Part shown: piece after piece, positions 1,486 to 60,879 of the stretch
How positions within the stretch are numbered: the stretch's first letter is position 1
Layout of the letters: every line of letters begins with the position of its first letter
Source of the DNA: Sipunculus nudus
Taxonomy: Eukaryota; Annelida; Sipuncula; Golfingiida; Sipunculidae
Direction: 5' to 3'
DNA: 64,000 nucleotides
Assembly (NCBI GenBank): GCA_026874595.1
Contig: CM049315.1
Span: 13,516,664-13,580,663, forward strand
Made by a program: the position numbers and the translations under genes
Notes under the pieces: model-generated
What the model was told of the DNA's origin: nothing
What the model saw: only the letters and a program-made list of their open reading frames with translations
Databases searched by the model: none

Positions 1486-1559
1486 CTGGATGACATTGAC
1501 CTTCTTGCCATTGAGGAAGATGGGCACTCCCACAAAGTTGCTGTATTTCTTGATCACAT
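1486..1559 (-). CDS. TRAP1: TRAP1 exon F (end of ATPase domain)
   Basis: Minus-strand exon of 74 bases with a CTCTCTCTGACAG acceptor and a CAG|GTTAGTAAG donor. It takes G from exon E to make Asp and encodes VIKKYSNFVGVPIFLNGKKV then NVIQ, matching human [20 protein letters not shown] and the linker into the middle domain. It ends in phase 0. The following exon (human AIWMMDPKDV) must lie beyond position 1. A long pyrimidine tract precedes the acceptor. Confidence 0.96.
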
Positions 1560-3983: not shown

Positions 3984-6530
3984 GGTGATATGAGAATAAC
4001 TGTACACCTGTCACAGCAGGGGATCTCCCCCAGTGACTGTAACAAATCAGAAACCCTGGCATAGCTGACTTCCAGTGACCTGGAGTGGGACCCTGCATCT
4101 GTAATCAAAGCAAGTGACTACAGAAAAAACAAGGGACCCATGGGTCACGGCGCTCAGCTGTTATATATGATAAAAAATATGATTTGGGAAAGAGGCATAT
4201 GCTGGTTTTGTGTGGAAATAAATATAAGCTTTATTATGAGTTGTGGGTGTTTAGCTTATGTATGATTTTGATAGTATTTTTGGAGACAGGGAAGAGGATT
4301 GATTTGTCACACAGATTTTGACCTGGCCATATAACTTATAAGCAGCACATAAAATAAAAGAGTTTAACTATTTATTAAAATTTAATTGCAAATGTTGTGC
4401 CAATATAATATTTATTAAAAATAATAAAAGAATCATATGATTTTTTTAATAAAATATAACTGAACTAATTATTAAAATAATATTATAGAATATATGCATT
4501 CATGAATACATTTTGAAAGTATTTGCACTGGTATTCAAATACTTTCATTTTTACCTGAATTCCCATTCTTATGCAAGAAATTTTATAATGGAGTACATAT
4601 TCATATTCATATTCATATACATTTGCAAAGTATTTGCACCATGTCTGGTATTTATTCAGTTTTAGCCAAACAATGATGTTGAGAATCCAGAATATAAACA
4701 AAGGACTCATGGGTCATGACAAAAGTTTGAAATTTTTGCAAATGCAAAATATGAAAAATATTCTATTGTAATGTTTTATATTTATATAAGCATATGAGAA
4801 GCTAAGAGGAAAGGGCCCTCCTACTTGGTTATAGTAAAGTTCTCAATATATGATTGCAAACTAATACTCTGACAAGACTGTCATGAAGAAAAACAGTAAA
4901 AGTTTTGAGATACTGTGATGCATATGAAAAAATTACAGATGGACAGGCAAGTGGACAGAATGGACTTATACCTTCATTTCACTTTCAAAGGAATAATACA
5001 TTTAAGTTTATATATAAATATATTAATAGTTTTTATCTGATTCATTTTTTTTATTTACAAGTGTTATAAATTTGTAATATAAAAATGAAAATATAAGTTA
5101 AAATATTACAATTCTAAGTTGCAATCATTATATTTCCAGATTGTAGCTCACATTGGGTCATATTATGCATACACATATATTTTATTATTTTTAAATCAAA
5201 TGTTTAAACTGAATGTAAAAGAAAATAATGCCACAACATGGCATCTACAAAATTATTCCTTGAATTCCTATTAAAAAGTTTTGCACATTGGAGTTTTCAG
5301 GACAAGCTTAATTTTATTCACCGAAATAAAATAAAAGATTCAGTAAATTTGAAAAAATAAAAACATCTTTTCAAATAAAGTATACACACTGTTGGTTGAA
5401 TGAGGGACAAACAATATCATTATGCTAATTACAATCTAAGCTATAATTAATAACTGGAATTAATAGTCAATTTCACACCCGGTGAAGTTTTACTCTTCTG
5501 AAGTAAAGCATTACTTATCTGATGAACATCCATACTTTCATAGCAATACATCACTTTGTGGACACAATTAAATGTGCACTTTAATCATTGTAACCCTGGT
5601 GGTACAATCCAAAATCTAAAATGTAGCATGTCCAAGAATAAAATAAAATACAGAAAATTATAACATTCATCTAGTTTATGCACCAGCTGGGGGGGGGTTG
5701 AGTGCAGGGCAGAGGAGAAGCCTGCTAGTAGTGGCCAAGCTGGGTCAAGGCAAGCTGCCTGGGGTGGGTTACATAATGCAAGTGAAGGCTGTACTACTAG
5801 GTGGGCCAGATATAAACAACACTTGACATGGTGTATGAAAACTTGAATAAAAGCTACTCTTTTCAAACAATTTCTTTGAAATTTCAGATTTTAAAAGATT
5901 AAATCCTTATGTATATATGCTGTGAAAATTAAATCAACAGTGCTTACAGGGAAAAAACGTGCCACTGCCAAAGTTGGACAAAATGTAAGGTATTAATTTT
6001 TTATTTATGCTAATAACTTGAAAAATTTGCAAAATTCAGATCTAATTTTTGGCAAACAATTGAATCTTGATTAAATAAAGTTTTATTCCTGAAAAAAAGT
6101 CTTCAGCTTCAGCAATTCTCATGTTAAGTGAGCAAATATATTTCCTGATTTTTTAAAAATTGCATTATATTTGGGCCTATAACTTCAAAATAATACCCAA
6201 TACTGACCTAATTTTTGGTATGTGCACAGAAAATGTATGGAAGAATATGAATACTAAATATGATCAAAAACAGATCAGTGGTTTTGATATTAGGCAGACT
6301 TGAAGTGTAACAATTGCTTTTTTATGGAAAACGGAGGTTTTTCCTTAATATCTCGAAGGAACGAAGTTCTAATGACCCAATTTTCGGTATGGTAGGAAAT
6401 TTTGGGGACTTCTAATGGTATGCAGAATTTTGGATTCGTAGGTCCAATGGTTTTAAAACGTGCCCTGTTAACGGACGGACGGCCGGACGGCCAGACGGCC
6501 GGACATACCACGGACAAAGGACCACGACTA

Positions 6531-11066: not shown

Positions 11067-12840
11067 TAATTTTCCTAAAGTTTATATTTTGGTAATCTTC
11101 CGTACAAATTACATACAGGTCTGACAACTTAAAATTGTTAATCAAGTTCCAAGCTTATGATTAACTTTATTTTGGACTCTTTCTGATGATCTGACCAAAC
11201 ATGTTAATGCATGGGTATATTCAACACGAGCCATTTTTGTTATACTTAGTTCTGATTTCTGTAAATTCAGCATGTCAGATGTAGCAGTTTTAATTTAGTG
11301 TATGACTTTCTAAATAAATGGATTTTCTACCTAAATATAATGTAAGATCGGTAATGACCAAAGTGGTTGTAATTTGAGGGTGGTCTTATTTGTGGATTTC
11401 TAAATTACTGGATCATATATTCGGGTACGCTCCATAAGCAGCGGTTATGCTATGCTAAACTATTCGCTCCACTAACCATTGCACACAAAAAAAACACAAT
11501 TGCCCATCAGGTTTGGCCACCAGGCGGTGCTGTCTCTTTGGAATTCCCTCCTGCATACTATTTAACCATCCTGTTGGTATACACAGGATGCAATCGTAAC
11601 CTTACAGGACAGTCTCTATACTAACTTCCTGGTGTGGTCTGGGGTTAGTTAATTATCTCCCACTTATTGCAAATTTCCTCTCTTGTAGTGCCGTACAACC
11701 AGCTACACATGGATGCAGCCATGGTTGTTTACACGCTTAGCTAATCAGATTTTGTATTACGAGCGCCATGTGGCAGCAGTCAACTTTGTTTACACACTGA
11801 TCCAATCAGATTTTACCTTTCCCAGTGCAAATTGACTAGATGTTTAGCAGCTTGTCAAACCTGAAGAATCCTTCCATTTCTCACAGCGTGTGAAGGAGGT
11901 CACGTGCTGTGTTCAGAGAGTAATATTCAGGAAAAAGAAAAGCTTTCTTAATTGTGGGGTGGTTGCAATTGTGGGGTGGTTGCAAGGCCAGATTCCACTG
12001 TATTTCATCCAATGGTTGCAAATTATGTTCCTGCCTAATTTTTCTTATGTATGATACAATTTTACAAAGAACACGTTTACAGGAATGGTGAAACAAGAGC
12101 GTCAGTTTAAGAAAATGATCAATGCACCAGGAGGGTTAAATCCCTGACATTTGCATATTTGTAAATCATGCAGCCATTAAAAGAGAGATACGAGACTTAT
12201 GAAACAGTGTAAAAAATGAATACATTTGATATGTTGTATTAAGAACACAGCTGTTTCAACTGCCATCTGGCAGTTAATTTCATAATAAAGTCAGTGACAG
12301 TCACACCAAAACCACAACTGTTGCCAGTGCAACATAAATCCTTTTGCAACAATATAAGTATTTCATACTGGGTATAAAGTGAAAAAAAAATAATGCTTCA
12401 TTAGAATAAATACATGGTATTTTATAAACACTACTAGTCTAGCCCCAGTAATTGCAAAATAAACAACATGCAACATTGCTTTTCTGCAAATGTCATTGTG
12501 GGTGATAAATACATGAGATATCATCAAAATCTCAGCTTCATCACAATATGTTATTTAATTTTTATTATCACATAAAGTTTACTTCAATTCCCTCATCTTT
12601 ACTGACAGAGGGAAAAATCTTCAGTAAAGGGGTACAATAAATCACAGTCATGATCAATTATGATCAAACTTAAATTTAGGTATGATTTTACTTGACCTGG
12701 CTGGACACAGATACTAACCATTGATAATCTCCTCTTTTGAGTATGATTTTACTTAACCTGGCTGGACACAGATACTAACCTCTGATAATCTCCTCTTTTG
12801 AGTATGATTTTACTTGACCTGGCTGAACACAGATACCAAC

Positions 12841-12902
12841 CTTTGATGTTCTCCTCTTCTGAGAAGTCATAGCAGTCTCCCTTCTGGTGGATGACGATTT
12901 TC
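12841..12902 (-). pseudogene. Longer exon E fragment, distal end of array
   Basis: This unit carries about 61 bases of exon E 3' end instead of 22, ending in a donor of the form AAAG|GTTGGTATC. It would encode KIVIHQKGDCYDFSEEENIK, against KIVIHLKGDC and YDFSKEENIK in the real exon, so it has L to Q and K to E changes. It has no adjoining acceptor of the exon E type, so it is a partial exon copy rather than a complete alternative exon. Confidence 0.88.
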
Positions 12903-15900
12903 ATATGATTTTACTTGAACTGACTGGACACAGATACTAACTTTTGATGTTCTCCTCTTTTGTCGATGATTTTACTTGACCTGGCTGGACACAGATACTA
13001 ACCTCTGATAATCTCCTCTTTTGTCGATGATTTTACTTGACCTGGCTGGACACAGATACTAACCTCTGATGATCTCCTCTTTTGAGTAAGATTTTACTTG
13101 ACCTGGCAAGACATAGATACTAACCTTTAATGTTCTCCTCTTTTGTCGATGATTTTTACTTAACCTGGCTGGACACAGATACTAACCTCTGATAATCTCC
13201 TCTTTTGAGTATGATTTTACTTGACCTGGCAAGACATAGATACTAACCTTTGATGTTCTCCTCTTTTGTCGATGATTTTACTTAACCTGGCTGGACACAG
13301 ATACTAACCTCTGATAATCTCCTCTTTTGAGTATGATTTTACTTGACCTGGCTAGACACAGATACTAACCTTTGATGTTCTCCTCTTTTGTCGATGATTT
13401 TACTTAACCAAGCTGGACACAGATACTAACCTCTGATAATCTGCTCTTTTGAGTATGATTTTACTTGACCTGGATCCACACAGATACTAAAAATCCTCTG
13501 ATAATCTCCTCTTTTGAGTATTTTACTTGACCTGGCTGGACACAGATACTTACCTTTGATGTTCTCCTCTTTTGTCAAGGATTTTACTTGACCTGGCTGG
13601 ACACAGATACTAACCTCTGATAATCTCCTCTTTTGAGTATGATTTTACTTGACCTGGCTGGACACAGATACTTACCTTTGATATTCTCCTCTTTTGTCGA
13701 TGATTTTACTTGATCTGGCTGGACACAGATACTAACTTCTGATAATCTCCTCTTTTGAGTATGATTTTACTTGACCTGGCTGGTCACAGATACTAATCTC
13801 TGATAATCTCCTCTTTTGAGTTAATTTTACTTGATCTGGCTGGACACAGTTACTTACCTTTGATGTTCTCCTTTTGTCGATGATTTTACTTGACCTGGCT
13901 GGACACAGATACTAACCTTTGATGTTCTCCTCTTTTGTCAAGGATTTTACTTGACCTGGCTGGACACAGATACTAACATCTGATAATCTCCTCTTTTGAG
14001 TATGATTTTACTTGACCTGGCAAGACATAGATACTAACCTTTGATGTTCTCCTCTTTTGTCGATGATTTTACTTAACCTGGCTGGACACAGATACTAACC
14101 TCTGATAATCTCCTCTTTTGAGTATGATTTTACTTGACCTGGCTAGACACAGATACTAACCTTTGATGTTCTCCTCTTTTGTCGATGATTTTACTTAACC
14201 AAGCTGGACACAGATACTAACTTCTGATAATCTGCTCTTTCGAGTATGATTTTACTTGACCTGGCTCCACACAGATACTAAAAATCCTCTGATAATCTCC
14301 TCTTTTGAGTATTTTACTTGACCTGGCTGGACACAGATACTTACCTTTGATGTTCTCCTCTTTTGTCAAGGATTTTACTTGACCTGGCTGGACACAGATA
14401 CTAACCTCTGATAATCTCCTCTTTTAAGTATGATTTTACTTGACCTGGCTGGACACAGATACTTACCTTTGATGTTCTCCTCTTTTGTCGATGATTTTAC
14501 TTGATCTGGCTGGACACAGATACTAACTTCTGATAATCTCCTCTTTTGAGTATGATTTTACTTGACCTGGCTGGTCACAGATACTAATCTCTGATAATCT
14601 CCTCTTTTGAGTATGATTTTACTTGATCTGGCTGGACACAGTTACTAACCTTTGATGTTCTCCTCTTTTGTCGATGATTTTACTTGACCTGGCTGGACAC
14701 AGATACTTACCTTTAATGTTCTCCTCTTTTGTTAATGATTTTACTTGACCTGGCTGGACACAGATACTAACCTCTAATAATCTCCTCTTTTGAGTATGAT
14801 TTTACTTGACCTGGCTGGACACAGATACTAACTTCTGATAATCTCCTCTTTTGAGTATGATTTTACTTGACCTGGCTGGACACATATACTTACCTTTGAT
14901 GTTCTCCTCTTTTGTCGATGATTTTACTTGACCTGGCTGGACACAGATACTAACTTCTGATAATCTCCTCTTTTGAGTATGATTTTATTTGAACTGGCTG
15001 GACACAGATACTTACCTTTGATGTTCTCCTCTTTTGTCGATGATTTTACTTGACCTGGCTGGACACAGATACTTACCTTTGATGTTCTCCTCTTTTGAGT
15101 ATGATTTTACTTGACCTGGCTGGACACAGATACTCATCTCTGATAATCTCCTCTTTTGAGTATGATTTTACCTTTGATGTTCTCCTCTTTTGTTGATTAT
15201 TTTACTTGACCTGGCTGGACACAGATACTTACCTTTGATGTTCTCCTCTTTTGTCGATGATTTTACTTGACCTGGCTGGACACAGATACTTACCTTTGAT
15301 GTTCTCCTCTTTTGAGTATGATTTTACTTGACCTGGCTGGACACAGATACTCACCTCTGATAATCTCCTCTTTTGAGTATGATTTTACCTTTGATGTTCT
15401 CCTCTTTTGTCGATGATTTTACTTGACCTGGCTGGACACAGATACTAACCTCTGATAATCTCCTCTTTTGAGTATGATTTTACTTGACCTGGCTGGACAC
15501 AGATACTAACCTCTGATAATCTCCTCTTTTGAGTATGATTTTACTTGACCTGGCTGGACACAGATACTTACCTTTGATGTTCTCCTCTTTTGTCGATGAT
15601 TTTACTTGACCTGGCTGGACACAGATACTAACTTCTGATAATCTCCTCTTTTGAGTATGATTTTATTTGAACTGGCTGGACACAGATACTTACCTTTGAT
15701 GTTCTCCTCTTTTGTCGATGATTTTACTTGACCTGGCTGGACACAGATACTTACCTTTGATGTTCTCCTCTTTTGAGTATGATTTTACTTGACCTGGCTG
15801 GACACAGATACTCATCTCTGATAATCTCCTCTTTTGAGTATGATTTTACCTTTGATGTTCTCCTCTTTTGTTGATTATTTTACTTGACCTGGCTGGACAC

Positions 15901-16432
15901 AGATACTTACCTTTGATGTTCTCCTCTTTTGTCGATGATTTTACTTGACCTGGCTGGACACAGATACTTACCTTTGATGTTCTCCTCTTTTGAGTATGAT
16001 TTTACTTGACCTGGCTGGACATAGATGCTAACCTCTGATAATCTCCTCTTTTGAGTATGATTTTACCTGACCTGGCTGGACACAGTTACTAACCTTTGAT
16101 GTTCTCCTCTTTTGTGGATAATTTTACTTGACCTGGCTTGACACAGATACTTACCTTTGATGTTCTCCTCTTTTGAGTATGATTTTACTTGACCTGGCTG
16201 GACACAGATACTCACCTCTGATAATCTCCTCTTTTGAGTATGATTTTACCTTTGATGTTCTCCTCTTTTGTCGATGATTTTACTTGACCTGGCTGGACAC
16301 AGATACTAACCTCTGATAATCTCCTCTTTTGAGTATGATTTTACTTGACCTGGCTGGACACAGATACTAACCTCTGATAATCTCCTCTTTTGAGTATGAT
16401 TTTACTTGACCTGGCTGGACACAGATACTAAC

Positions 16433-16494
16433 CTTTGATGTTCTCCTCTTCTGAGAAGTCGTAGCAGTCTCCCTTCTGGTGGATGACGATTTTC
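16433..16494 (-). pseudogene. Longer exon E fragment, proximal part of array
   Basis: Second copy of the longer exon E fragment, 223 bases downstream of the real donor in transcription order. It has the same L to Q and K to E changes as the copy at 12841-12902 and the same junction (GAAAATC preceded by CATAT), so the two copies descend from each other rather than separately from the exon. Its donor is the canonical array form GTTAGTATC. Confidence 0.88.
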
Positions 16495-16716
16495 ATATGA
16501 TTTTACTTGAACTGACTGGACACAGATACTAACCTCTGATAATCTCCTCTTTTGAGTATGATTTTAGTTGACCTGGCTCGAAACAGATTCTAACCTCTGA
16601 TAATCTCCTCTTTTGGGTTTGATTTTACTTGAACTGGCTGGACACAGATACTAACCTCTGATAATCTCCTCTTTTGAGTATGATTTTACTTGACCTGGCT
16701 GGACACAGATACTAAC

Positions 16717-16826
16717 CTTTGATGTTCTCCTCTTTTGAGAAGTCGTAGCAGTCTCCCTTCAGATGGATGACGATTTTCGTTCCTCGTTGCACCCCCTCAG
16801 CCTCTGACAGTTCGTATGATCCCTGA
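16717..16826 (-). CDS. TRAP1: TRAP1 exon E; its 3' end is the seed of a tandem array
   Basis: Minus-strand exon of 110 bases with a TTTGTAG acceptor and an AAAG|GTTAGTAT donor. After completing Gly it encodes QGSYELSEAEGVQRGTKIVI then HLKGDCYDFSKEENIK and leaves one G. The GT in QRGTKIVIHL is the Thr that contacts the nucleotide at the end of the Bergerat fold. Human TRAP1 has [20 protein letters not shown] then HLKSDC. Reading past the donor gives an immediate in-frame stop (GGT TAG). The last 22 bases of this exon plus the next 39 bases of intron are the unit of the 61-bp array that follows directly (12681-16716), so the real donor is the first of a long series. Confidence 0.96.
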
Positions 16827-23820: not shown

Positions 23821-25362
23821 GGCTTCATCTTTACCTGCAGGAGGCTGAGCCTTCATCTTCACCTGAAGGAGGCTGAGCTTTCATCTTTACCTGAAGGAGG
23901 TTGAGCCTTCATCTACACCTGAAGGAGGCTGAGCCTTCGTCTTCACCTGAAGGAGGCTGGGCCTTCGTCTTCACCTGAAGGAGGCTGAGCCTTCGTCTTC
24001 ACCTGAAGGAGGCTGAGCCTTCATCTTCACCTGAAGGAGGCTGAACCTTCATCTTCACCTGAAGGAGGCTGAGCCTTCATCTACACCTGAAGGAGGCTGA
24101 GCTTTCATCTACACCTGAAGGAGGCTGAGCCTTCGTCTTCACCTGAAGGAGGCTGAGCCTTCATCTTCAACTCAAGGAGGCTGAGCCTTCATCTTCACCT
24201 GAAGGAGGCTGAGCTTTCATCTACACCTGAAGGAGGCTGAGCCTTCATCTTCACCTGAAGGAGGCTGAGCCTTCATCTTCACCTGAAGGAGGCTGAGCCT
24301 TCATCTACACCTGAAGGAGGCTGAGCTTTCATCTACACCTGAAGGAGGCTGAGCTTTCATCTACACCTGAAGGAGGCTGAGCCTTCGTCTTCACCTGAAG
24401 GAGGCTGAGCCTTCGTCTTCACCTGAAGGAGGCTGAGCCTTCATCTTCAACTCGAGGAGGCTGAGCCTTCATCTTTACCTGAAGGAGGCTGAGCCTTCGT
24501 CTTCACCTCAAGGAGGCTGAGCCTTCATCTTTACCTCAAGGAGGCTGAGCCTTCATCTTCACCTGAAGGAGGCTGAGCCTTCATCTTCACCTGAAGGAGG
24601 CTGAGCCTTCATCTTCACCTGAAGGAGGCTGAGCCTTCATCTACACCTGAAGGAGGCTGAGCTTTCATCTACACCTGAAGGAGGCTGAGCTTTCATCTAC
24701 ACCTGAAGGAGGCTGAGCCTTCGTCTTCACCTGAAGGAGGCTGAGCCTTCGTCTTCACCTGAAGGAGGCTGAGCCTTCATCTTCAACTCGAGGAGGCTGA
24801 GCCTTCATCTTTACCTGAAGGAGGCTGAGCCTTCGTCTTCACCTCAAGGAGGCTGAGCCTTCATCTTTACCTCAAGGAGGCTGAGCCTTCATCTTCACCT
24901 GAAGGAGGCTGAGCCTTCATCTTTACCTGTAGGAGGCTGAACCTTCATCTTCACCTGAAGGAGGCTGAGCTTTCATCTTCACCTCAAGGAGGCTGAGCCT
25001 TCATTTTTACCTGAAGGAGGCTGAGCCTTCATCTTCACCAGAAGGAGGCTGAGCTTTTATCTTCACCTGAAGGAGGCTGAGCCTTTGTCTTCACCTGAAG
25101 GAAGCTGAGCCTTCGTCTTCACCTGAAGGAGGCTGAGCCTTCATCTTTACCTTAAGGAGGCTGAACCTTCATCTTCACCTGAAGGAGGCTGAGCCTTCAT
25201 CTTCACCTGAAGGGGGCTGAGCCTTCATCTTTACCTGAAGGAGGCTGAGCCTTCATCTTTACTTGTAGGAGGCTGAGCCTTCATCTTCACCTGAAGGAGG
25301 CTGAGCCTTCATCCTCACCTGAAGGAGGCTGAGCCTTCATCTTTACTTGAAGGAGGCTGAGC
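23821..25362. repeat. 28-bp minisatellite, about 55 copies
   Basis: Head-to-tail units GGAGGCTGAGCCTTCATCTT plus CACCTGAA, spacing 28 bases. Variants include TCGTC for TCATC, CTACACC for CTTCACC, and AACTCGAGG for ACCTGAAGG. A 12-unit block of 336 bases is present twice (compare TTCAACTCGAGG at 24446 and 24782). Within a unit, AGCCTTCA can pair with TGAAGG-AGGCT, so every unit can form a short hairpin. The unit is not a multiple of three and no long ORF runs through it, so it is not a coding repeat. Confidence 0.95.
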
Positions 25363-28040: not shown

Positions 28041-28210
28041 CCATCAGAACTCCACTTGAGCGAAGGGCTGTTTGGTAAATGGGAACGCGTGTACACGTCA
28101 ACCTTTTCTCCCACCATAAATGAAGAGTAGAAGCCAACACCAAACTGACCGATTATGTTCCTGTTGACCCCTTCCTTTTCGTTATTTTCTGCTATCTGGT
28201 TCAAGAAGGC
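28041..28210 (-). CDS. TRAP1: TRAP1 exon D (lid and GQFGVGFYS glycine motif)
   Basis: Minus-strand exon of 170 bases (56 codons plus two bases), with a TTTTTTACAG acceptor and a GATGG|GTAGGT donor. It opens [18 protein letters not shown] (the lid, variable in the family), then [19 protein letters not shown], the conserved glycine-rich lid hinge, and ends [16 protein letters not shown] plus GG. Human TRAP1 has the equivalent AFLDALQNQAE...[19 protein letters not shown]...YQWLSDG. The donor could also be read as GTAAAA six bases further on, but only the GTAGGT site keeps the reading frame into exon E (GG + T = Gly) and matches human DGSG. Confidence 0.96.
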
Positions 28211-29889: not shown

Positions 29890-32290
29890 TAATAAATATA
29901 AGCTTTATTATGAGTTGTTGGTGTTTAGCTTATGTATGATTTTGATAGTATTTTTGGAGACAGGGAAGAGGATTGATTTCATTTATTTTATTAACAAATG
30001 GAGTGCTATTGTCACACAGATTTTGACCTGGCCATATAACTTATAAGCAGCACATAAAATAAAAGAGTTTAACTATTTATTAAAATTTAATAACAAATGT
30101 TGTGCCAATATAATATTTATTAAAAATAATAAGAGAATCATATGATTTTTTTAATAAAATATAACTGAACTAATTATTAAAATAATATTATAGAATATAT
30201 GCATTCATGAATACATTTTGAAAGTATTTGCACTGGTATTCAAATACTTTCATTTTTACCTGAATTCCCATTTTTATGCAAGAAATTTTATAATGGAGTA
30301 CATATTCATATTCATATTCATATTCATATACATTTGCAAAGTATTTGCACCATGTCTGGTATTTATTCAGTTTTAGCCAAACAATGATGTTGAGAATCCA
30401 GAATATAAACAAAGGACCCTTGGGTCATGACAAAAGTTTGAAATTTTTGCAAATGCAAAATATGAAAAATATTCTATTGTAATGTTTTATATTTATATAA
30501 GCATGTGAGAAGCTAAGAGGAAAGGGCCCTCCTACTTGGTTATAGTAAAGTTCTCAATATATGATTGCAAACTAATACTCTGACAAGACTATCATGAAGA
30601 AAAACAGTATAAGTTTTGAATTACTGTGATGCATATGAAAAATTTACAGATGGACAGGCAAGTGGACAGAATGGACTAATACCTTCATTTCACTTTCAAA
30701 GGAATAATGCATTTAAGTTTATATATAAGCCTATTTTTTTAGCATATCCACTTTTTTCATTAATAGTTTTTATCTGATTCATTTTTTTTATTTACAAGTG
30801 TTATAAATTTGTAATATAAAAGTGAAAATATAAGTTAAAATATTACAATTCTAAGTTGCAATCATTATATTTCCAGATTGTAGCTCACATTGGGTCATAT
30901 TATGCATACACATATATTTTATTATTTTTAAATCAAATGTTTAAACTGAATGTAAAAGAAAATAATGCCACAACATGGCATCTACAAAATTATTCCTTGA
31001 ATTCCTATTAAAAAGTTTTGCACATTGGAGTTTTCAGGACAAGCTTAATTTTATTCACCGAAATAAAATAAAAGATTCAGTAAATTTGATCAAATAAAAA
31101 CATCTTTTCAAATAAAGTATACACACTGTTGGTTGAATGAGGGACAAACAATATCATTATGCTAATTACAATCTAAGTTATAATTAATAACTGGAATTAA
31201 TTGTCAATTTCACACCTGGTGAAGTTTTACTCTTCTGAAGTAAAGCATTACTTATCTGATGAACATCCATACTTTCATAGCAATACATCACTTTGTGGAC
31301 ACAATTAAATGTGCACTTTAATCATTGTAACCCTGGTGGTACAATCCAAAATCTAAAATGTAGCATGTCCAAAAATAAAATAAAATACAGAAAATTATAA
31401 CATTTTATCTAGTTTATGCACCAGCTGGGGGGGAGAGGGGGGGGGGGGTTGAGTGCAGGGCAGAGGAGAAGCCTGCTAGTATTGGCCAAGCTGGGTCAAG
31501 GCAAGCTGCCTGGGGTGGGTTACATAATGCAAGTGAAGGCTGTACTACTAGGTGGGCCAGATATGAACAACACTTGACATGGTGTATGAAAACTTGAATA
31601 AAAGCTACTCTTTTCAAACAATTTCTTTGAAATTTCAGATTTTAAAAGATTAAATCCTTATGTATATATGCTGTGAAAATTTAACCAACAGTGCTTACAG
31701 GGAAAAAACGTGCCACTGCCAAAGTTGGACAAAATGTAAGGTATTAATTTTTTATTTATGCTAATAACTTGAAAAATTTGCAAAATTCAGATCTAATTTT
31801 GGGCAAACAATTGAATCTTGATTAAATAAAGTTATGTTCTTGAAAAAAAGTCTTCAGCTTCAGCAATTCTCATGTTAAGTGAGCAAATATATTTCCTGAT
31901 TTTTAAAAAAATTGCATTATATTTGGGCCTATAACTTCAAAATAATACCCAATACTGACCTAATTTTTGGTATATGCACAGAAAATATATGGAAGAATAT
32001 AAATACTAAATATGATCAAAAACAGATCAGTGGTTTTGATATTAGGCAGACTTGAAGTGTAACAATTGCTTTTTTATGGAAAACGGAGGTTTTTCCTTAA
32101 TATCTCGAAGGAACGAAGTTTTAATGACCCAATTTTCGGTATGGTAGGAGATTTTGGGGACATCTAATGGTATGCAGAATTTTGGATTCGTAGGTCCAAC
32201 GGTTTTAAAACGTGCCCTGTTAACGGACGGACGGACGACGGACAAAGGACCACAACTATAGCTCAGATGACTTACAGTCAGCTGAGCTAA
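29804..32290 (+). mobile_element. Family-A element A2, full length, nested in B3
   Basis: Begins CAAGGGACCCATGGGTCACG then GCGCTCAGCTG and ends at the GACGGACGGACGACGGAC run and the hairpin with CTGAGCTAA. It is 2.49 kb, has one 3' module only, and is very similar to A1 throughout. Host B sequence flanks it on both sides without an obvious target duplication beyond an A-run. Non-autonomous. Confidence 0.78.
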
Positions 32291-58604: not shown

Positions 58605-58636
58605 CTGTCAACAAAAGTAACTTGTATAAGTTGTAT

Positions 58637-59525
58637 TACCAAAATTTCTAGAATAAAGTTATTAGTGGTAACTTTTTCTAAACTAAATATTCTACAATAA
58701 AGTTATTAGTGGTAACTTTTGTATTACCAAAATTTCTACAATAAAGTTATTAGTGGTGACTTTTGTATTACCAAAACATCTACAATAAAGTTATTAGTGG
58801 TAACTTTTGTATTACCAAAATTTCTACAATAAAGTTATTAGTGGTGACTTTTGTATTACCAAAACATCTACAATAAAGTTATTAGTGGTAACTTTTGTAT
58901 TACCAAAATTTCTACAATAAAGTTATTAGTGGTGACTTTTGTATTACCAAAACATCTACAATAAAGTTATTAGTGGTGACTTTTGTATAACCAAAACTTT
59001 TACCATAAAGATATTAGTGGTAACTTTTGAATAACCAAAATTTCTACAATAAAGTTATTAGTGGTAACTTTTGTATTACCAAAACTTCTACAATAAAGTT
59101 ATTAGTGGTGACTTTTGTATAACCAAAACTTTTACCATAAAGATATTAGTGGTAACTTTTGAATAACCAAAATTTCTACAATAAAGTTATTAGTGGTAAC
59201 TTTTGTATTACCAAAACATCTACAATAAAGTTATTAGTGGTGACTTTTGTATAACCAAAACTTTTACCATAAAGATATTAGTGGTAACTTTTGAATAACC
59301 AAAATTTCTACAATAAAGTTATTAGTGGTAACTTTTGTATTACCAAAACATCTACAATAAAGTTATTAGTGGTGACTTTTGTATAACCAAAACTTTTACC
59401 ATAAAGATATTAGTGGTAACTTTTGTATTACCAAAACATCTACAATAAAGTTATTAGTGGTGACTTTTGTATAACCAAAACTTTTACCATAAAGATATTA
59501 GTGGTAACTCTTGTATTACCAAAAC
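58637..59525 (-). repeat. 44-bp tandem array next to exon A acceptor
   Basis: About 20 units of 44 bp; plus-strand core ACCAAAATTTCTACAATAAA followed by GTTATTAGTGGTAACTTTTG. Three variant units form a 132-bp higher-order repeat in the second half (variants with ATAACCAAAACTTTTACCAT). On the TRAP1 sense strand each unit reads CACTAATAACTTTATTGTAG, a compact branch-point-plus-AG arrangement. The array starts about 30 bases upstream of the exon A acceptor. Confidence 0.93.
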
Positions 59526-60879
59526 TCAGGAAATCAACATGGAGCAAAGCAAGACAGGTGTGGGGAAGAATTTGTTTTTTTCCGAAGGTCTAATGTCAAG
59601 CATCTTAGAATAAATCAGAAAGATATCTTTTGATGATGGCCTTATAGAGCAGGATCACACTGACAATCTGTGTACAATCACCGCTCACTGGATATAAACA
59701 GTTAATTTTATTCACTCACTCAACATTCTTGAATACTTGTGACCAATAAGCTAAAGAGTTGTGACAAGGTCTTATGGTATGTAACTGGTGATCAGGCACT
59801 GTAAATATCATTAAACGTGACGTATATTCTGTCCAAACGCCCGTGTGAACCTAATTTGACATAACCGATGTTTTCAATAAATATAAGCTGCACCCGTAAC
59901 TAAATGTCAGCTTTTATCACAGGATAGCACAGAGTGGCAATTTATGATAATTTAAATAAATAAGTATGAAATAAATATATCTATTTTGGGCAGTTCAGAT
60001 TAGTCAAATAAAGAGTATAGTCCACCTTTTGTTTTTGGTAAAGAATGACTATTTTATAAACTGAAATTTTATTTATACAAGTTTATCTTAAGCAAGAGTA
60101 AGGGAACCACCTGAAAAAAGTGAAAAAGTGTATACTTTCAACAATATCTAGAAAATAAATATATCCAAGTTAAAGGTCTCTTTACACTACAGTTTAAGCC
60201 AACAATTATGGGGATTCGTCTTGTGCAAAAAACAAACACATTCATTTGAAACTGAAATCTATTGAGCCAATAAACAATTTTTTTTAATCAGCTAAATAGG
60301 GATAATGCCTGATCTGCAATGCTTTCCTTGTTTTAGAAGAATAATAAGGTAAAACTTTTCATCTGAGAGTCAAGAGAGATAGATACAGCTAGAGGAATTA
60401 TTACATACACAGGGACAAAATTTAATACAACATTTGGTTAAATATAAACTCTACACAGTATGACTGTAATATGAAACAAGAGACACAAAAATAACACAAA
60501 CCTGCCAGGGGTAAATTACAGATACAAAATTCAGAGGTTAATTGTAAATAACTTGGGAACTAGGATATTCATCACTTAATTTTAAGATATTTGACACAAG
60601 TTTAAACCTTAGTAGTAAATCAAATGTCTAAAAAACAATGTAATTTTGATTATTCCCTAGTAATGAAATAAGTTGAAAGATGCAAACAGACTGTGAGTGA
60701 TACGGAAGCTGAACTCAATCCTCGCTAAATTCAAACTCCAAAACTTAAATGTTCCATAATGATTAATGTGTTGCTTTTCATGAATGGGAGAAAAAATTCA
60801 CCATTTGGCACAAATCAAGTAATTGCACTGCACTGAGTCACGCTTAACATTTGATTACCCCGCGTTAAATAACAATTAC

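Follow-up and report, generated by a model that had tools for sequence, protein, structure and literature searches.

We present here a tandem array built on an exon-intron junction of the gene for the mitochondrial chaperone TRAP1 in the sipunculan Sipunculus nudus, within a window of 64,000 nucleotides (GenBank assembly GCA_026874595.1, contig CM049315.1, positions 13,516,664 to 13,580,663 of the forward strand; all window positions given below count from its first base). A 61-bp unit spanning the donor splice site of the exon here called E is repeated on the minus strand from 12680 to 16738 in 67 units, the true junction included, and an array of this extent is far beyond chance. The array is a large new instance of an already described kind of repeat, the mirage, as tandem repeats over exon-intron boundaries were named in amphioxus Adh3 (Canestro et al. 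2002, as cited). With a probability that we put at roughly 0.86, and judging from the DNA, it would be a passive minisatellite of the mirage type in which the true, proximal donor dominates.

The array was detected with Tandem Repeats Finder (TRF) together with direct reading of the raw sequence, and the units were then cut in the sense direction of TRAP1. The consensus unit comprises 22 exon bases and 39 intron bases and is in register with the genuine exon E junction, and unit 1 is the genuine end of that exon with its true donor; apart from the exon part of unit 1, the 4-kb array is intronic. An earlier reading of this DNA made from its letters (the sequence-only reading) had described some 65 tandem copies of the donor region after the exon, in good agreement with the 66 extra units counted. 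It had further described the unit as exactly the end of exon E plus the following intron, of which the 22 + 39 anatomy and the continuity with the junction stand and the word "exactly" does not, as the exon part is of the true exon E type in 33 of the 67 units and carries a 3-site variant in 34. Fifty-five units measure exactly 61 bp, four measure 34 bp, two measure 101 bp and six measure 58, 62 or 65 bp, the surplus of the two 101-bp units being 40 additional exon bases. Distinct sequences are found in 46 of the 67 units, with a mean pairwise identity of 0.90 among the 55 units of 61 bp.

Exon E itself (16717..16826, minus strand, as are all TRAP1 features listed here; 110 nt, encoding QGSYELSEAEGVQRGTKIVIHLKGDCYDFSKEENIK plus one base) was placed by its frame and by gap-free alignment with TRAP1 proteins, its start and acceptor being predicted from how its frame continues that of the preceding exon. 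The 22 bases at its 3' end (16717-16738) supply the exonic portion of the unit, and the junction AAAG|GTTAGT at 16717/16716 opens a phase 1 intron with the true donor GTTAGT at 16711..16716. The preceding exon (28041..28210) and the next exon (DVIKKYSNFVGVPIFLNGKKVNVIQ; 1486..1559) were located by alignment with TRAP1 proteins; the latter follows the acceptor CTGACAG|ATG, likewise has a GTTAGT donor, and is separated from exon E by an intron of 15,157 bp. Joining exon E to the next exon restores the codon GAT, and the join is free of gaps in nine of nine aligned relatives with the coding frame intact. The joined exons align with TRAP1/HSP75 proteins, at 58-66% to three that are so named (P0003, P0011 and P0024) and at 72% to the closest TRAP1 relative.

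Across the 1.43-Gb assembly (153 contigs), all 38 matches returned for the unit lie inside the TRAP1 array. Dispersal of the unit was considered and set aside, no other genome site being returned by a search in which a single candidate region was scored and very frequent words are passed over, such that absence elsewhere is not proven by it; elsewhere in the window, the matches are of 11-16 bases and at chance level.

The route by which the array grew can be approached from its edges and joins. The final unit continues into ATCATACCTAAATTT and the unit-to-unit joins read ATCATAC|TCAAAAG, on which grounds the founding duplication seems to have fused intron base 39 with a site lying 22 bases into the exon; the breakpoint homology is at most one base by inspection. 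Counted from either end of the array, the two 101-bp units stand in fourth place, and each holds an exon E fragment, 42 bases from upstream of the usual exon part and 40 more than in a normal unit (16453..16494 and, near the distal end, 12861..12902; minus strand). The extra 40 exon bases share changes in both units, which is why a single capture event was probably copied later to both ends of the array. On a larger scale, a 684-bp block (15385..16068, minus strand) is repeated at an offset of 678 with 98.7% identity, a recent higher-order duplication, and a 668-bp block (13945..14612, minus strand) is repeated at an offset of 791 with 99.0% identity; between the two ends of the array, the match over 464 bp is 94%. 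All 17 units with a GTAAGT donor fall within units 9-53, more centrally than in shuffles (P 0.014, by a shuffle that ignores unit descent). The array therefore has the homogenised centre and diverged edges of a mirage, in the 98.7-99.0% identity of the centre, the 94% of the ends and the central position of GTAAGT. Block duplication and exchange seem to drive its turnover, most intensely in the central part.

The donors of the 66 extra units read GTTAGT in 34, GTAAGT in 17 (15-20 had been claimed), GTGAGT in two, GTAAAA in four and another GT in three, the GT being lost in six. The GTAAAA donors sit in the four 34-bp units, which lack the unit middle. Many but not all units thus keep the splice signal, as is the case for mirages, with GT present in 60 of the 66 extra units, or in 63 of all 67 (94%) by a unit alignment that places two units with 4-base insertions differently. 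Readthrough past the true donor gives KEENIKG*, the stop being the second codon after the last complete exon codon, and the immediate stop stated in the sequence-only reading is borne out. The same applies to the acceptor-like TGTGTCCAG that it had placed 43 bases before the next donor, which is present in most units (50/67) with its end at that distance as counted on the unit.

Scoring of each donor with a splice-site model, proposed as a check in the sequence-only reading, was done with a frequency matrix of mammalian type and with pairing to the 5' end of U1, measures that rank donors and do not predict their use. By the matrix, 38 of the 66 decoys fall below the true donor and nine equal it, leaving 47 no better than the true donor and 19 above it. 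The first of those above is the decoy of unit 8, about 500 nt downstream. In terms of exon definition, an exon reaching to a donor some 500 nt downstream exceeds normal exon size. Purposeful decoys would be expected to make the donor less variable than the rest of the unit, and harmful decoys would be broken more often. Within the array, selection for or against the decoys is seen neither in dinucleotide rank, where the decoy GT stands in the middle (28 unit dinucleotides more intact, 31 less), nor in the variability of the donor hexamer, which resembles random sets of six unit positions (P 0.23 and 0.32). Two further candidates were rejected: an RNA structure formed by the repeats, as the 261 nt surrounding the true donor fold no better than shuffles (z 0.94), and an exclusion of strong decoys near the true donor, where none of the first seven decoys is matrix-stronger but P is ~0.08 (hand estimate, with 19 of 66 strong). 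Since matrix-strong decoys are also missing from the distal units 54-66, the difference in homogenisation between edge and centre explains their distribution.

A second junction-spanning array was found in the genome, in an MKKS-like gene, where an 84-bp unit is present in 4.7 copies over the donor (locus L053:2395-2780; contig C3, ~73094649-73095034). The exon end reads CTCACAG|GTGAGT at locus base 2425, the unit comprises ~31 exon and 53 intron bases, and GTGAG is retained in two of the four extra copies. The gene was identified by the Pfam domain Cpn60_TCP1 and by four homologs, one of them named McKusick-Kaufman/Bardet-Biedl chaperonin, with which the exon join aligns. This locus belongs to a base-rate sample, taken outside the window, of 44 exon loci from genes for HSP90, chaperonins and kinesins, several of them exons of the same gene, which includes one locus that may be intronless (L052) and six kinesin loci fetched of the 126 matches listed, with flanks of only 200-250 bases. 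Dropped before the count were 18 long intronless-frame loci on unplaced contigs (L009-L016, L042-L051) and L056, on one of the same contigs. A junction-spanning array is thus present at one of these 44 loci (L053) and at one of six TRAP1 exons inside the window. L024, L028 and L068 have an array no more than 60 bases away from the match; at L028 the sequence is coding low complexity that ends at the exon end. With arrays defined by a period of at least 10 and a minimum of 3 copies, 4,233 of 60,000 bases (7%) belong to arrays in random sequence from C10, the contig of the window (six stretches obtained of 20 drawn), and 8,252 of 64,000 (13%) in the window, where the TRAP1 array makes up about half and ~7% remains without it. 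Given this coverage, arrays at boundaries need no special cause.

On the preferred reading, a 61-bp stretch across the exon E donor would have been duplicated in tandem, and unequal exchange together with block duplication would then have enlarged the duplicate to the 4-kb array. The true donor would remain at the upstream edge of the array and, because it is nearest to the exon E acceptor, would serve productive splicing in vivo, while the array, probably devoid of a function of its own, would leave with the intron; occasional use of a decoy would meet the stop and be lost to decay. The sequence-only reading had left the choice between neutral expansion and a U1 sink or splice-site competitor, and of these the former is favoured, the latter being without positive support in view of the unconstrained decoys, the distance to the first stronger decoy and the absence of an unusual fold around the true donor.

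Several observations nonetheless weigh against a purely passive array. The true donor is of the weaker GTTAGT type and is outscored in the matrix by 19 of the 66 decoys, and base pairing to the U1 5' end is stronger than its own in 35 of the 66, with a margin of 0.1 kcal only in 16; decoy use is for these reasons plausible in sequence terms. The base rate, too, comes from a sample of only 44 exon loci. Moreover, two downstream repeat donors of a minisatellite in human IFI6 are used and give rise to isoforms (PMC4526556), a case cited in one paper as a minisatellite interfering with splicing. It is because those extra donors are used that a competitor role is kept alive for TRAP1: the decoys, with GT in 60 of 66 extra units and GTAAGT in 17, would capture some transcripts, every such use would read KEENIKG and stop, and copy number would tune TRAP1 output through decay. 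We regard this as improbable, as the decoys are without constraint, in the matrix the true donor is not exceeded by any of the first seven (several of which have a 0.1 kcal advantage in U1 pairing), and amphioxus mirages bearing AG/GT are reported without disturbance of splicing (PMC3087553). The broader proposition that the 66 decoys form a splice rheostat for the mitochondrial chaperone, set by copy number and sending a share of TRAP1 transcripts to decay, and that such arrays recur across the genes of this animal, is likewise given little credence.

The dozens of U1-complementary sites located where the long intron begins could also be docking sites for U1 that shield the 15-kb intron from premature cleavage and polyadenylation, which is very unlikely considering that the sites are without constraint and that no copy of the unit is present in the other introns of the window, among them one of greater length (16.6 kb, from 44820 to 28210). 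About as unlikely is that the array serves as raw material for new exons or introns, its acceptor-like units turning into microexons, in line with the model of intron gain from mirages proposed in PMC3087553 and with the frequent TGTGTCCAG upstream of the next donor; the pyrimidine tract is poor by eye, a 43-nt insert would shift the frame, neither copy of the exon fragment has an evident acceptor by eye, and the proposal concerns a possible future rather than a present function. Least probable of all is an artefact of assembly. Tandem arrays are error-prone in this respect and a mirage mis-assembled in a draft assembly is noted in PMC3087553, but the divergence of the units described above, the absence of N from the window and the position of the array inside a 79.6-Mb contig speak for its existence, with a copy number that may still be off.

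Other repeats were observed in and around TRAP1. A 44-bp x 20 array (58631-59526), many units of which hold the acceptor-like TTTATTGTAG in sense, was tried as an acceptor counterpart and rejected, as a gap of 26 bases separates it from the TRAP1 exon downstream (58604-58522) and the true acceptor lies outside it. A 16-bp x 46 array (L034:1807-2560; sense ACCCAGGTTACAGGTA), rich in CAG/GT signals, precedes a later TRAP1 exon by ~220 bases, and a 28-bp x 55 minisatellite occupies another TRAP1 intron (23823-25362). The stretches 4486-5906 and 30191-31657 have near-identical translated frames in the same order and look like copies of one dispersed repeat. Among the chaperone matches, contigs C61-C99 are of bacterial type, with nine equally scoring GroEL matches (547-amino-acid frame) and eight matches to the HSP90 family (688-amino-acid frame). 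The closest named relatives of the one GroEL searched are Spirochaetota at 80%, and the closest overall stands at 84%; a spirochaete-like cobiont is perhaps their source.

The TRAP1 array offers a very large natural test of donor choice among dozens of near-identical, sense-oriented donors. Taken together with the MKKS-like case, it suggests that minisatellites spanning boundaries extend beyond the few genes where we found them described, and if such arrays are common in large animal genomes, this would matter for intron growth and for the model in which introns are gained by tandem duplication.

The sequence-only reading knew of no described case of an exon-intron junction as a minisatellite unit, a statement that does not hold in the light of PMC3087553, PMC2812944 and Turri et al. 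1995 (as cited). In amphioxus, mirages are described also for the globins BflGb6 and BflGb9, with concerted evolution inside, boundary units excluded from it, units of 10-160 bp, AG/GT in many but not all repeats and regular splicing left undisturbed; their length differs between haplotypes, those of BflGb6 having 3 and 6 units (PMC3087553). The 61-bp unit falls within that size range, and the TRAP1 array resembles these mirages in spanning an authentic boundary, in its homogenised centre with excluded edge units and in the AG/GT of many units. It differs from them in having 67 units against the 3 and 6 of BflGb6, in residing in a different gene and in belonging to a 1.43-Gb genome.

The minisatellite of human IFI6 has a repeat unit of 12 bp. 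This gene (also 6-16 or G1P3) obtains multiple splice donors from the minisatellite (Turri et al. 1995, as cited), and the likeness to TRAP1 lies in a minisatellite that offers further donors downstream of an exon; the downstream donors of TRAP1 bring an immediate stop rather than a full-length isoform, unlike those of IFI6. In human segmental duplications, minisatellite expansion at exon-intron boundaries accounts for 27 intron modifications after inspection, besides 53 in exons, with units of ~30 bp in four copies on average over all gene-modifying repeats, in recent paralogs, and some of the boundary repeats form new introns (PMC2812944). These repeats differ from the TRAP1 array in their smaller format (~30 bp x 4), in their recent paralogs and in the new introns formed by some, and share with it the expansion of a minisatellite at an exon-intron boundary.

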